A DNA stretch of 39,158 nt. It comes from Candidatus Saccharimonadota bacterium. GTDB lineage: Bacteria; Patescibacteriota; Saccharimonadia; Saccharimonadales; Saccharimonadaceae. The stretch is taken from NCBI GenBank assembly GCA_020428315.1, contig JAGQNA010000008.1, positions 1 through 39,158 of the forward strand, read 5' to 3'. Below, piece by piece: positions 16,178 to 19,976 of the stretch; position 1 is the first letter of the stretch; each line of letters opens with the position of its first letter. The notes beneath the pieces are model-generated. The model worked only from the letters and a program-made list of their open reading frames with translations, was not told the DNA's origin and searched no databases. Both the position numbers and the translations under genes were made by a program.

Positions 16178-16196
16178 AACCTAACGTTATCTAGTA

Positions 16197-16225
16197 AAAT
16201 GAGGGCAGAAGCGCCCTCATTTTTA
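16197..16225 (+). terminator. Intrinsic terminator after the DoxX gene
   Basis: AAATGAGGGC (16197-16206) pairs perfectly with GCCCTCATTT (16213-16222) across a 6-nt loop, followed by further T. It ends the ftsZ-to-DoxX transcript just 8 bases before the T-box leader begins. Confidence 0.8.
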
Positions 16226-16232
16226 TATGTGA

Positions 16233-16417
16233 GGTGAGTGGTTATCGGCCGCGAATGCCCCCGAAAGAAATCTGGCAAACAGAAACTAGACTCGGGCGAC
16301 CATCGACTCGTCAGATCGAACAATAAAGTGCGAATATAGAGTAAATCTCTTTTTCGAAACTGGATGGCACCGTCCGCACAACCCTTGCGGATTCCAGTAA
16401 CGAAGAAGGGATTTTTT
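16233..16417 (+). promoter_or_regulatory. T-box riboswitch (tRNA-Ile type) in front of GNAT-ileS
   Basis: Stem I: GGTGAGT (16233-16239) pairs with ACTCGTC (16306-16312), and GGTT (16240-16243) pairs with GACC (16298-16301). This leaves ATC plus a purine (16302-16305) bulged as the specifier, an Ile codon. A stem III-like hairpin spans 16331-16356. The antiterminator is textbook: ACTGGA (16359-16364) with TCCAGT (16393-16398), the 7-nt bulge TGGCACC (16365-16371), and GTCCGCA (16372-16378) with TGCGGAT (16386-16392). Two competing structures exist: CCCTT (16382-16386) with AAGGG (16406-16410) followed by six T (terminator-like), or TTCCA (16392-16396) with TGGAG (16421-16425), which hides the ribosome-binding site. 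Uncharged tRNA-Ile should switch the operon on. The promoter is not evident. Confidence 0.85.
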
Positions 16418-16429
16418 GTTTGGAGAAAG

Positions 16430-17014
16430 ATGGAACAAGAGCGACAATCAGATTACGAGATACGTGAAGCGACTATCGATGACGTCAATCCTATCCGTAC
16501 TATGCATGGACAATCTTGGCGCGATACTTATCGCAATGACGAACTAGGCGTTACCGAGGAGTGGTTGGCGGAAGAAACAGCCAAGTGGCTCACACCCGAG
16601 TGGATGGACAAGTCGTATCAAAAAATGTCTGAGGTGTTTGCCGACCCGGAGCAGTTTTATAGAGTTGCACTTCAAGGCGACAGGGTAGTCGGTATGGTTC
16701 ATGTTCTTACCAAAGAAGACGGCACCAAGCACCTTGGTGCGTTGTATACGACCACTGAGACGCACGGTAGTGGCTTAGCTCAAGAGCTGATGTCCCTAGC
16801 AGATAGCTTTGTGGGTGATGACGAGATTGACCTAGAGGTTGTAGATTATAACGAACGGGCCAAGGCCTTTTATCGCAAATGTGGCTTTGTCGATGCGGGT
16901 GAAACTGGAGAGTTATTTCGTGACAAAATGCCGGTATTACGCATGGTGCGAAGGGCTGGGTCACGTAGCGATTATTGTAAATATGATAAAAAGGGAGAAT
17001 GCGATGAAGTTTAA
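16430..17014 (+). CDS. GNAT-family N-acetyltransferase
   Basis: A 194-residue GCN5-related acetyltransferase. It has 'YEIREATIDDVNPIRTMH' at the start, 'QGDRVVGMVHVL' as the central strand, a modified acetyl-CoA loop ('THGSGLAQELMSLA'), and 'NERAKAFYRKCGFVDAG' as the last signature. The substrate is unknown. The reading frame is open further upstream, but that part lies inside the T-box antiterminator; the ATG at 16430 follows GGAGAAAG and is chosen. It overlaps ileS by 11 bases, so the T-box controls both genes. Its DNA is more GC-rich than the genes before it, like ileS. Confidence 0.88.
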   Translation: MEQERQSDYEIREATIDDVNPIRTMHGQSWRDTYRNDELGVTEEWLAEETAKWLTPEWMDKSYQKMSEVFADPEQFYRVALQGDRVVGMVHVLTKEDGTKHLGALYTTTETHGSGLAQELMSLADSFVGDDEIDLEVVDYNERAKAFYRKCGFVDAGETGELFRDKMPVLRMVRRAGSRSDYCKYDKKGECDEV

Positions 17015-19976
17015 ATCAAACAGCCGCCGTCGGGCGCTAGAATACGAAAAAGAGTGGGCAAAGACCTGGAAAGACAACAAGACGTTTGAAAAATCAGTCG
17101 AAAATCGGCCAGCAGATGACGCCTATGTATTTTACGACGGTCCGCCGTTTATCACGGGTGTGCCACATCACGGCACACTGCTTAGTTCTATTGTAAAAGA
17201 CGCTGTACCGCGCTACTGGACTATGAAAGGTAAGCGTGTCGAGAGAGTCTGGGGTTGGGACACGCACGGTCTACCGGCCGAGAATTTCGTCGAGAAACAG
17301 CTCAACATCATCGACCGACGCCAGATAGTAGCTAGTCTAGATGACAAGGCGCCACTTGACAAAGAGGGCAATGAATTATCGACTGTCAGCCTAGAAACCT
17401 ACATAAATAAAGCCCGCGAAAGTATGGTCGCAAACGCTGCCACCTGGGAAGATGTCGTCGATCGCGTCGGTCGCTGGGTAGACTTTAACGGTGCCTACAA
17501 AACCATGGACAAAGACTATATGGAAAGCGTCTGGTGGGCATTCAAAGAGCTTTACGAAAAGGGCAAAATCTACGAAGGTGAAAAGGTGCTGATGTACGAC
17601 ACCAAATTCGCTACGCCTGTCAGCAAAAACGAAGTTACCATGGATAATGATGCTTATCAGACGGTGACGGATCCGAGTGTGTATGTACGATTCAAGTTAG
17701 CCGATAACGCCAGCCTGCTCGCCTGGACAACCACACCATGGACACTACCTGGCAACACAGCACTAGCTGTCAGTAGCGAACTGGACTATATCGAAGTCGA
17801 GCTAGACGGTGAACGCCTTATCGTTGCCAAAGATCTAGCACCAAAAGTTTTTGTAGACGACAAAAAACAGCCACTCGACTATAGCGTTGTGCGCGAGCTA
17901 AAAGGCTCAGAGCTAGTAGGGCAGAGCTATCAGCCGCTATTTGAAGACCACGGCGGCAACGCGCACAAGATTTGGGCGGCCGAATACGTTAGTGCTGACA
18001 GCGGTACCGGTATCGTCCATATCGCGCCGGCCTACGGTGAGGATGACTTCGAGCTTGCGGGGGCAGAAGACATCCCAGTCGCGCATACGCTCGACGACAA
18101 CGGCTTTTATTTCCCAGAAGTTGCCGAACAGCTATTCGCACTCATGCCATGGGTCGACAGCACCAAACCACTTGAAGTCTGGGACAATAACAAAAACATT
18201 GCCAAAGGCCTGCAAAAAGCTGGTATCGTCTGGAAAACCGAATACATCCAACACGAATATCCGTTCAATCCACGTAGCAAACAGCGTATTATGTATCGCG
18301 CTATCCCTAGCTGGTTTTTCGACGTGCAGGGTAGCAAGCCAAAGATGCTCGAGCAAAACGAGAACATTAATTGGTTCCCAGAACATCTCAAACACGGCCG
18401 TTTCGCCAAAAATATTGAGCAAGCACCAGACTGGAATCTGTCACGCGACCGCTTTTGGGCGACGGCTATGCCTGTCTGGAAAGGCGACCGCGGTACCGTA
18501 AAGGTCATCGGTAGCTACGCCGAACTAAAAGAACTCAGTGGCGTAGAGCTAGAAGATTACCACCGCCCATGGGTCGACGACATCACCTTCGAAATCGACG
18601 GCGAGAAATTCACTCGCATCGAAAAAGTCCTAGACTGCTGGTTCGAGTCTGGTAGTATGCCATTTGCACAGTTCCACTATCCGTTCGAAAACAAAGAAAA
18701 GTTCGAAGCCAATTACCCAGGCGACTTTATCGTCGAATACATCGGCCAAGTCCGCGCTTGGTTCTACTACGTACATACCATCAACACGGCGTTGTTTGGC
18801 GAGCAAGCTTTCAACAACGTCATCACCACCGGTACGCTAGCTGGCAACGACGGCCGCAAGATGAGCAAAAGCCTCGGCAACTACACTGATCCAAATGAGC
18901 TGATGGACAAGTTCTCGGCCGATAGTCTGCGTTTCTTACTACTCAGCTCACCGCTGCTTAAAGGCGAAGACTTTAGTCTACAAGACAAGGACGTCGGCGA
19001 CGTCGCGCGCAAACTTAGTATGGTTTGGAATATGTACGATTTCTTCACTATGTACGCCGAAGTCGACGGCTGGGAATTTGACGCTAGCAAGCCGTTTACG
19101 ACAAACCCAGACGATGTGTCTAACCCGCTCGACAAATGGATCATCAGCCGCGTCCATCAGCTAAATCAGCACATCACCGAGCATATGGATGACTACAATC
19201 TGCCAGAGGCTATGAGTGACATCTTGCCGCTACTAGATGACGCCAGTAACTGGTACGTACGCCGCAGCCGTCGCCGTTTCTGGAAGAGTGAAGATGACGG
19301 CGACAAAGCCGAAGCTTACCGCACGCTTCACTACGTGTTACTTAAACTCTCAGTTGTCTTGGCACCATTTACACCATTCCTAGCCGAAGAGCTTTACCAA
19401 AAACTCGGTGGCGGAGCAGCGTCTGTTCACCTGCTGGATTGGCCGACAAATTATACCGTCGACCAGAAGGTTTTAGATGAAATGCAGCAAGCTCGTAGCG
19501 TAATCAATGATATATTGTCGATTAGGGCGAAGCAGGGTATCAAGACGCGTCAACCGCTTGGCTACGCCAAGGTCGAGATAGCGCATGATTTCCGACCCGA
19601 AATCCGTGAAATGGTGATCGATGAAGTGAATATTAAACAGATTGAGTTTGTGTGCAACCCAGCACTGCAAGGCCAGCGTGAAAATACCAAGATTGACGTT
19701 GAGCTAAATATCACCCCCGAGCTTAAGCGTGAAGGCTATATGCGCGAAATTATTCGTCATGTTCAGGCGGCTCGCAAGTCTGCTGGGCTAAATGTTGACG
19801 ATCGTATAAAACTTCAGCTAGATACCGATGACACTGAACTAGCCAAGGCTCTAGTGGAGCATCACGACATCATCTATGCCGAGACTCTGGCTGCAAAGAG
19901 CGATAGTGTGGCAGTAGAGCCAGTTGTCTCCAAGATAGACGGCATCAAACTATCGATATACTTAGCCAGAATGTAA
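17004..19976 (+). CDS. ileS: Isoleucyl-tRNA synthetase, eukaryotic-like (type 2)
   Basis: Charges tRNA-Ile. The 990-residue class I synthetase has the HIGH motif as HHGT (residues 55-58, in GVPHHGTLLSS), WGWDTHGLP, the editing domain with 'LAWTTTPWTLPGNTAL' and 'GTGIVHIAPAYGEDD', the KMSKS motif (619-623, in GRKMSKSLGN), and a long helical anticodon-binding domain. The HxGH environment and overall form match the eukaryotic-like branch found in some bacteria, several of which resist mupirocin; the C-terminal zinc finger of type 1 enzymes is absent. ATG at 17004 has the ribosome-binding sequence AAGGGAG. Codon use is strongly C/G-biased compared with most of the window, suggesting separate acquisition together with its T-box. 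Confidence 0.96.
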   Translation: MKFKSNSRRRALEYEKEWAKTWKDNKTFEKSVENRPADDAYVFYDGPPFITGVPHHGTLLSSIVKDAVPRYWTMKGKRVERVWGWDTHGLPAENFVEKQLNIIDRRQIVASLDDKAPLDKEGNELSTVSLETYINKARESMVANAATWEDVVDRVGRWVDFNGAYKTMDKDYMESVWWAFKELYEKGKIYEGEKVLMYDTKFATPVSKNEVTMDNDAYQTVTDPSVYVRFKLADNASLLAWTTTPWTLPGNTALAVSSELDYIEVELDGERLIVAKDLAPKVFVDDKKQPLDYSVVRELKGSELVGQSYQPLFEDHGGNAHKIWAAEYVSADSGTGIVHIAPAYGEDDFELAGAEDIPVAHTLDDNGFYFPEVAEQLFALMPWVDSTKPLEVWDNNKNIAKGLQKAGIVWKTEYIQHEYPFNPRSKQRIMYRAIPSWFFDVQGSKPKMLEQNENINWFPEHLKHGRFAKNIEQAPDWNLSRDRFWATAMPVWKGDRGTVKVIGSYAELKELSGVELEDYHRPWVDDITFEIDGEKFTRIEKVLDCWFESGSMPFAQFHYPFENKEKFEANYPGDFIVEYIGQVRAWFYYVHTINTALFGEQAFNNVITTGTLAGNDGRKMSKSLGNYTDPNELMDKFSADSLRFLLLSSPLLKGEDFSLQDKDVGDVARKLSMVWNMYDFFTMYAEVDGWEFDASKPFTTNPDDVSNPLDKWIISRVHQLNQHITEHMDDYNLPEAMSDILPLLDDASNWYVRRSRRRFWKSEDDGDKAEAYRTLHYVLLKLSVVLAPFTPFLAEELYQKLGGGAASVHLLDWPTNYTVDQKVLDEMQQARSVINDILSIRAKQGIKTRQPLGYAKVEIAHDFRPEIREMVIDEVNIKQIEFVCNPALQGQRENTKIDVELNITPELKREGYMREIIRHVQAARKSAGLNVDDRIKLQLDTDDTELAKALVEHHDIIYAETLAAKSDSVAVEPVVSKIDGIKLSIYLARM

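Follow-up and report, generated by a model that had tools for sequence, protein, structure and literature searches.

The window analysed here, a 39,158-nucleotide stretch of contig JAGQNA010000008.1 from a Candidatus Saccharimonadota bacterium, raises the question of how its isoleucyl-tRNA synthetase gene, ileS, is controlled, and whether the leader ahead of it acts on transcription or on translation. A sequence-only reading had proposed a complete T-box riboswitch with an Ile specifier at 16233-16425, controlling a GNAT-ileS operon, and had left the mechanism open. A T-box does lie at that place, with the element itself proving longer and extending over 16210-16417, from the start of Stem I (~16210) to the end of the U-tract (16417). 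Its T-box identity, its Ile specifier, and its control of GNAT-ileS are supported by comparative evidence, namely covariation, a covariance model, and homologous leaders, and the leader is very probably an Ile-specific T-box with an ultrashort Stem I that controls GNAT-ileS by transcription attenuation. Judged from its sequence, 16210-16417 belongs to the T-box class on all structural features tested, the exceptions being the Rfam score and the discriminator match. The features of the leader and operon are collected in Table 1.

Table 1. Features of the ileS leader and of the genes behind it, in window coordinates.
Feature	Positions	Strand	Parts	Evidence
-10-like TAAAAT	16195-16200	+		Sequence; kept in the closest relative, G049; weak call
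Ultrashort Stem I	16210-16259	+	Base AGCG 16210-16213 / UGCC 16256-16259; inserted hairpin CCUCA/UGAGG 16215-16234, within the K-turn-like loop; GA/GA K-turn-like internal loop 16236-16237, 16253-16254; apical helix GUGG/CCGC 16238-16241/16249-16252	Sequence; apical helix covaries; base and K-turn by eye from relatives
Specifier AUC (Ile)	16244-16246	+	Loop UUAUCGG, purine G next	ATC invariant in 38/38 ileS leaders
Stem II	16260-16296	+	Proximal helix 16260-16264/16292-16296; S-turn (loop E) AAGAA/AGUAGA, 16265-16270 with 16284-16291; distal helix UCUG/CAGA 16271-16274/16280-16283	9/9 pairs changed on both sides; AAGAA/AGUAGA motif conserved
Stem IIA/B pseudoknot	16297-16319	+	IIA 16297-16299/16308-16310; IIB UCGA/UCGA 16303-16306/16316-16319; F-box-like CGUCA 16309-16313	IIB: 4/4 pairs changed on both sides, 82% paired
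Purine string AAGUG (RRRxG)	16326-16330	+	5' of Stem III	Fits the 5'-RRRxG-Stem III-AA-3' rule (PMC7583486)
Stem III	16331-16356	+	5' strand 16331-16341; 3' strand 16347-16356; AA 16357-16358 on its 3' side	98% and 91% of cells paired; compensatory changes
Terminator 5' strand	16343-16356	+	Stem III loop and 3' strand	Covaries with 16401-16414
Antiterminator	16359-16398	+	A1 helix ACTGGA 16359-16364 / TCCAGT 16393-16398, perfect, 6 bp; T-box bulge UGGCACC, 7 nt, 16365-16371, between A1 and A2; A2 helix GTCCGCA 16372-16378 / TGCGGAT 16386-16392, perfect, 7 bp	99% and 94% of cells paired; 9/11 pairs changed on both sides
Terminator 3' strand	16401-16414	+	Overlaps the start of the six-U tract 16412-16417	Covariation, fold energy
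Shine-Dalgarno GGAG	16422-16425	+	Downstream of the U tract	Sequence
GNAT acetyltransferase	16430-17014	+	First gene behind the leader	Pfam PF00583 (Acetyltransf_1)
ileS, isoleucyl-tRNA synthetase	17004-19976	+		NCBIfam TIGR00392, 767 bits, E 2.5e-230

The antiterminator is present as it had first been placed, with the bulge TGGCACC set between perfect helices of 6 and 7 bp. The first pair of helix A2 is G16372-U16392, and the same G-U pair is found in 25 of 38 leaders; this pair and the 5'-RRRxG-Stem III-AA-3' arrangement are diagnostic T-box discriminator features (PMC7583486). For the purines that flank Stem III, alignment columns A88, A89, A93, G94, and G96 are invariant across the 38 leaders, and in leaders upstream of ileS the strands of A1/A2 vary around an invariant bulge (ACTGGA..TCCAGT, GCCAGA..TCTGGC, ATTGGA..TCCAAT, and GCGAGA..TCTCGC). 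A scan of both window strands for TGGNACC lying between two helices gives the antiterminator site a score of 13, with the runner-up scoring 7.

The proposal that Stem I presents ATC followed by a purine is likewise borne out, with AUC and G lying in the loop of GUGG-UUAUCGG-CCGC (16238-16252). This 7-nt specifier loop sits directly on the 4-bp apical helix with no more of Stem I above it, so that the elbow-binding motif is absent. At the base of Stem I, 3/4 pairs form in the window and 4/4 in its closest relative (G049, with an IleRS 92% identical to that of the window), which carries UGCU, and relatives often have a hairpin inserted at the K-turn-like internal loop. Across the 38 leaders, 3/4 pairs of the apical helix have changed on both sides. 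The likeness that the sequence-only reading had drawn to the compact ileS T-boxes of Actinobacteria holds for the length of Stem I and fails for the supposed absence of Stem II, since both a Stem II bearing an S-turn and a IIA/B pseudoknot are present and covary, with compensatory changes in IIB exemplified by CCAG/CTGG in one leader (L034) and CTGG/CCAG in another (L043).

A sigma-70 scan returned no full promoter match at the leader, and transcription would presumably start, from the sequence, at ~16206-16208. At 16197-16225 a terminator-like hairpin (AUGAGGGC / GCGCCCUCAU and a run of T) extends over both the putative -10 box and the first part of Stem I, and L032, L033, L108, and G049 show the same layout. 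This hairpin could be the terminator of the upstream gene, and a competitor of Stem I too.

Base pairs were counted on 38 aligned Saccharibacteria leaders for Stem I, the two helices of Stem II, IIA, IIB, Stem III, and A1/A2, with the structure string set by hand. Standard pairs occupy 94.3% of cells, compared with a mean of 75.6% in shuffled controls, which ignore the relatedness of the sequences, and at most 47.5% in slid versions, while changes on both sides of a pair occur in 312 cells, compared with 101 in the shuffled controls, and affect 32/38 pairs. Comparison of related genomes had been suggested as a check on the T-box call, with a lack of compensatory changes counting against it, and such changes prove to be abundant. 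Furthermore, an unsupervised RNAalifold analysis of a separate alignment without the window recovered the helices of Stem I, Stem II, Stem III, and A1/A2. A covariance model built from that alignment, which also leaves out the aligned relatives closest to the window (L087-L089), matches the window at 107.3 bits (E 3e-31) and is a non-circular test of the leader, with a second model that includes the window (R1) scoring 112 bits there as the single match across the window's own genome.

The suggested search with the Rfam T-box model RF00230 gave a weak match in the window, below the gathering score, and matched homologous loci at the same coordinates, with E values reaching 4e-10 to 4e-11. Rfam at its gathering score returned no match in the window; a permissive search of 351 bases with RF00230 placed one at 16185-16399, of 21.6 bits (gathering score 93) and E 0.0065, with an alignment that covers AAUAAAGUG, Stem III, and UGGCACCG. 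When RF00230 was run on the whole genome, the window did not stand out, so that the sequence on its own counts for little and the case has to be made with homologues. Among 61 genomes bearing homologues, 34 show a match at E <= 0.01 and three a match above the cut-off, at other loci, with the independently trained RF00230 matching the same coordinates as R1 in, for example, G071, G027, G001, G011, G320, and G140. Because RF00230 matches homologues at the same places, the missed gathering score was not counted as a refutation; the Rfam cut-off has been reported to leave out bona fide T-boxes (PMC12452182). Some genomes of the Candidate Phyla Radiation (CPR) hold many RF00230 matches, with ten in G107 and six in G393 (G107, G393, and G287: L215-L217, L253-L256, and L260-L264), and one Saccharibacterium has a second T-box match, of the RF00230 type (L250, G032:C2:70789-70959), adjoining a threonyl-tRNA synthetase gene named by eye.

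The closest named IleRS relatives of the window are all Saccharibacteria or unnamed kin of them, and R1 finds a match upstream of ileS, on the ileS strand, at 68 of 80 named Saccharibacteria loci. A family-wide search with R1 gave matches in 144/196 genomes and 39/42 genera, with related ultrashort T-boxes also found by R1 in 117 of 380 Patescibacteria genomes sampled evenly across the phylum. Directly behind 42 of the 44 matches examined from outside the family lies an aminoacyl-tRNA synthetase ORF identified with NCBIfam (22 ileS, 13 valS, five aspS, and two lysS), the remaining two preceding an inositol-monophosphatase-like gene named by eye (L158) and, close to the end of a contig, a short ORF (L206). 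Although R1 was trained on nothing but ileS leaders, elsewhere in the CPR it also picks up leaders of valS, which carry GUC, and of aspS, which carry GAC or AAC. An automatic reading of the specifier hairpin, which misses some hairpins, agreed with the gene at 14/22 ileS and 11/13 valS loci; the remaining loci were read by eye, with nearly all of the remaining ileS and valS specifiers agreeing and no clear match for L198, L199, or either lysS locus. The valS-type leaders L179, L184, L185, L187, L201, and L206 have a longer specifier loop, xxUAAUGUCA of 10-11 nt, compared with 7 nt in ileS leaders. The Asn codon AAC is found before the AspRS genes of L193, a non-discriminating aspartate--tRNA(Asn) ligase, and L205, a bacterial-type AspRS, and is consistent with indirect formation of Asn-tRNA.

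Of the two operon genes, GNAT is missing from G049, with a short ORF in its place. Across Saccharibacteria the slot between leader and ileS varies, holding GNAT, methyladenine glycosylase, Nudix, SDR, GDSL hydrolase, cupin, ArsC-like, or HAD phosphatase genes or short ORFs (L005, L006, L009, L011, L013, L045, L066, L068, L073, L077, L084, L087-L090, L094, and L108), and resembles a cargo site controlled by the T-box.

In the minimum-energy fold of the full leader, AAAUCUCUUUUUCG (the terminator 5' strand) pairs with CGAAGAAGGGAUUU (the 3' strand) in a 14-bp helix that runs into six U, and this helix encloses the intact antiterminator, with A1/A2 left paired. As the 5' strand of the terminator is made up of the Stem III loop and 3' strand, the terminator and Stem III are mutually exclusive. 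Among 36 leaders the terminator helix is 93.3% paired, compared with 80.9% after shuffling, with changes on both sides in 79 cells (18.8 in the shuffled controls) and at 14/15 pairs; with covariation counted for both, Stem III and the terminator are each supported as competing helices. Computed energies are -33.1 kcal/mol for the OFF form and -21.3 kcal/mol for the ON form (Stem III and A1/A2), and the computed minimum-energy fold switches from ON to OFF once the last strand has been transcribed. Strong terminators follow 49/54 Saccharibacteria leaders, compared with 32/540 control positions in the same loci, and in 31 of the 49 the 5' strand lies ahead of the T-box sequence, whereas 14 are canonical and use the antiterminator 3' strand. 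Of the two OFF structures put forward earlier, CCCTT/AAGGG is not the main one, its place being taken by the covarying 14-bp helix, and the pairing that hides GGAG is not conserved in G049, the Shine-Dalgarno sequence sitting beyond the U tract. Transcription attenuation is now better supported than when the mechanism was left open, and is the most likely mechanism suggested by these comparisons and fold models.

Under this mechanism, the GAU anticodon of uncharged tRNA-Ile would pair with AUC in the Stem I loop, with the pairing of anticodon and specifier clamped by Stem II with its S-turn and by the IIA/B pseudoknot, and the NCCA end of the tRNA would dock on the UGGC bulge of the antiterminator, the purines flanking Stem III acting as the latch. 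With Stem III held, RNA polymerase would read through into GNAT-ileS. Were tRNA-Ile charged, or no tRNA bound, Stem III would not be held, and the newly made strand CGAAGAAGGGAUUU would take the Stem III 3' strand to form the long hairpin followed by six U, at which transcription would end. An antiterminator without Stem III hardly binds tRNA (PMC7583486). Removal of Stem III by the terminator would accordingly put an end to tRNA binding, and uncharged tRNA, once bound, would presumably shield Stem III, although A1/A2 stay paired in the terminator form. Sequence comparison supports the secondary structure, the agreement of specifier and gene, a covarying terminator with one strand in common with Stem III, and the leader's conserved place ahead of ileS, whilst tRNA binding, the sensing of charging, actual termination, and the start site are what we infer.

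The discriminator match is an exception among the features of the leader. The UGGC of the window's bulge would pair with G73, whereas A73 is present in the tRNA-Ile(GAU) of G100, a genome in which the leader likewise has UGGC, and in that of G071 (both found with RF00005 and ARAGORN). Complementarity between UGGN and the discriminator is thus lacking for UGGC, and is present for the UGGU of most other leaders. The draft genome of the window has 33 tRNA matches, none of them Ile by ARAGORN, and a pattern search for tRNA-Ile found nothing; the gene is perhaps missing from the draft through an rRNA operon left unassembled. Elsewhere UGGC occurs in the ileS leaders L022, L036, and L172, the G100 leader matching L022, and it seems to be tolerated despite the mismatch.

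If the T-box instead acted on translation, as the actinobacterial ileS T-boxes do, its OFF fold would hide the Shine-Dalgarno sequence or the start codon. Most ultrashort Stem I T-boxes on record do act on translation (PMC7583486), and the minimum-energy fold of the window leader pairs CCAUC with GAUGG around the start codon; this pairing is, however, lost in the closely related G049, which starts with GTG. Additionally, the covarying helix and U tract precede the Shine-Dalgarno sequence, terminators follow 49/54 leaders of the family, and some relatives have canonical terminators (for example TTCCAAT-GAAA-ATTGGAA-TTTTTTT), making control of translation improbable here. A second possibility is that a canonical terminator dismantles the antiterminator strands, with the overlap with Stem III being a by-product. 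The textbook model does place A1/A2 strands in the terminator, their 3' strands forming its 5' strand (PMC7583486), and among Saccharibacteria leaders with a terminator about a quarter (14 of 49) use the antiterminator 3' strand in this way. The 14-bp helix of the window, however, draws solely on the loop and 3' strand of Stem III without disturbing A1/A2, and 31/49 terminators have a 5' strand that lies upstream of the T-box sequence, so that we consider this course of termination unlikely.

One could also read the facing of UGGC and A73 in G100 as the mark of a remnant, or of a constitutive terminator or attenuator, in which tRNA-Ile binding has been lost. Against this, the other tRNA-facing elements are all intact, G049 departs from the window at a single base pair of Stem I and otherwise just in loops and linkers, and the combination of UGGC with an ileS leader recurs in L022, L036, and L172, suggesting that it is tolerated; loss of tRNA-Ile binding is thus very improbable.

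As a presumed tRNA-Ile-responsive attenuator, the leader fits neither subclass of T-box cleanly, having a Stem I of the actinobacterial translational type, a terminator of the class I type, and a Stem III-stealing design. With the class II, translational ileS T-boxes of Mycobacterium tuberculosis and Nocardia farcinica it shares the Ile specifier and ileS target, a short Stem I without the tRNA-elbow-binding double T-loop motif, the Stem II S-turn, the IIA/B pseudoknot, Stem III, and the 7-nt UGGN bulge (PMC7583486, PMC10651847). It differs from these in its Saccharibacteria host, in the intrinsic terminator found where they have a Shine-Dalgarno sequestrator, and in the extra hairpin that many of its Stem I counterparts carry in the K-turn loop. 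The class I transcriptional T-boxes of Firmicutes (RF00230) resemble the leader in its proposed transcription attenuation, the T-box bulge, Stem II, IIA/B, and III, the RRRxG-Stem III-AA motif, and the A2 G-U pair. In contrast to the window leader, with its ultrashort Stem I and a terminator that takes the Stem III 3' strand, class I T-boxes are described as needing a long, elbow-binding Stem I and use the A1/A2 3' strands in their terminator (PMC7583486), and the leader falls below the RF00230 gathering score. The Saccharibacteria leaders with canonical terminators (for example L024, L025, and L037) have the same ultrashort T-box upstream of ileS, and differ in a terminator placed, as in class I, on the antiterminator 3' strand (ATTCCAAT / ATTGGAAT and seven T).

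No publication linking a T-box with Saccharibacteria, Patescibacteria, or CPR was found in the openly licensed papers searched, which is weak evidence of absence, and no description of a Stem III-stealing terminator was found in the same papers. The class II model of the TBDB paper was run on Actinobacteria and also on class I matches with a truncated Stem I, and thus some CPR elements could be in TBDB.

It is likely that ultrashort T-boxes across the CPR attenuate the transcription of several aminoacyl-tRNA synthetase genes without contact to the tRNA elbow, and that many of them, that of the window included, use a new platform whose terminator takes the Stem III 3' strand for itself and encloses an intact antiterminator, Stem III and not the antiterminator being the switch. 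Timely tRNA binding by transcriptional T-boxes is held generally to depend on a long Stem I with a grip on the elbow, the ultrashort ones being mostly translational (PMC7583486), and so many natural examples that combine an ultrashort Stem I with an intrinsic terminator would make this long-Stem-I rule testable. Annotation by the Rfam cut-off alone overlooks almost all CPR ultrashort T-boxes. With these elements the CPR would gain a shared, amino-acid-sensing control of ileS, valS, and aspS, which fits the host-dependent scavenging of amino acids.
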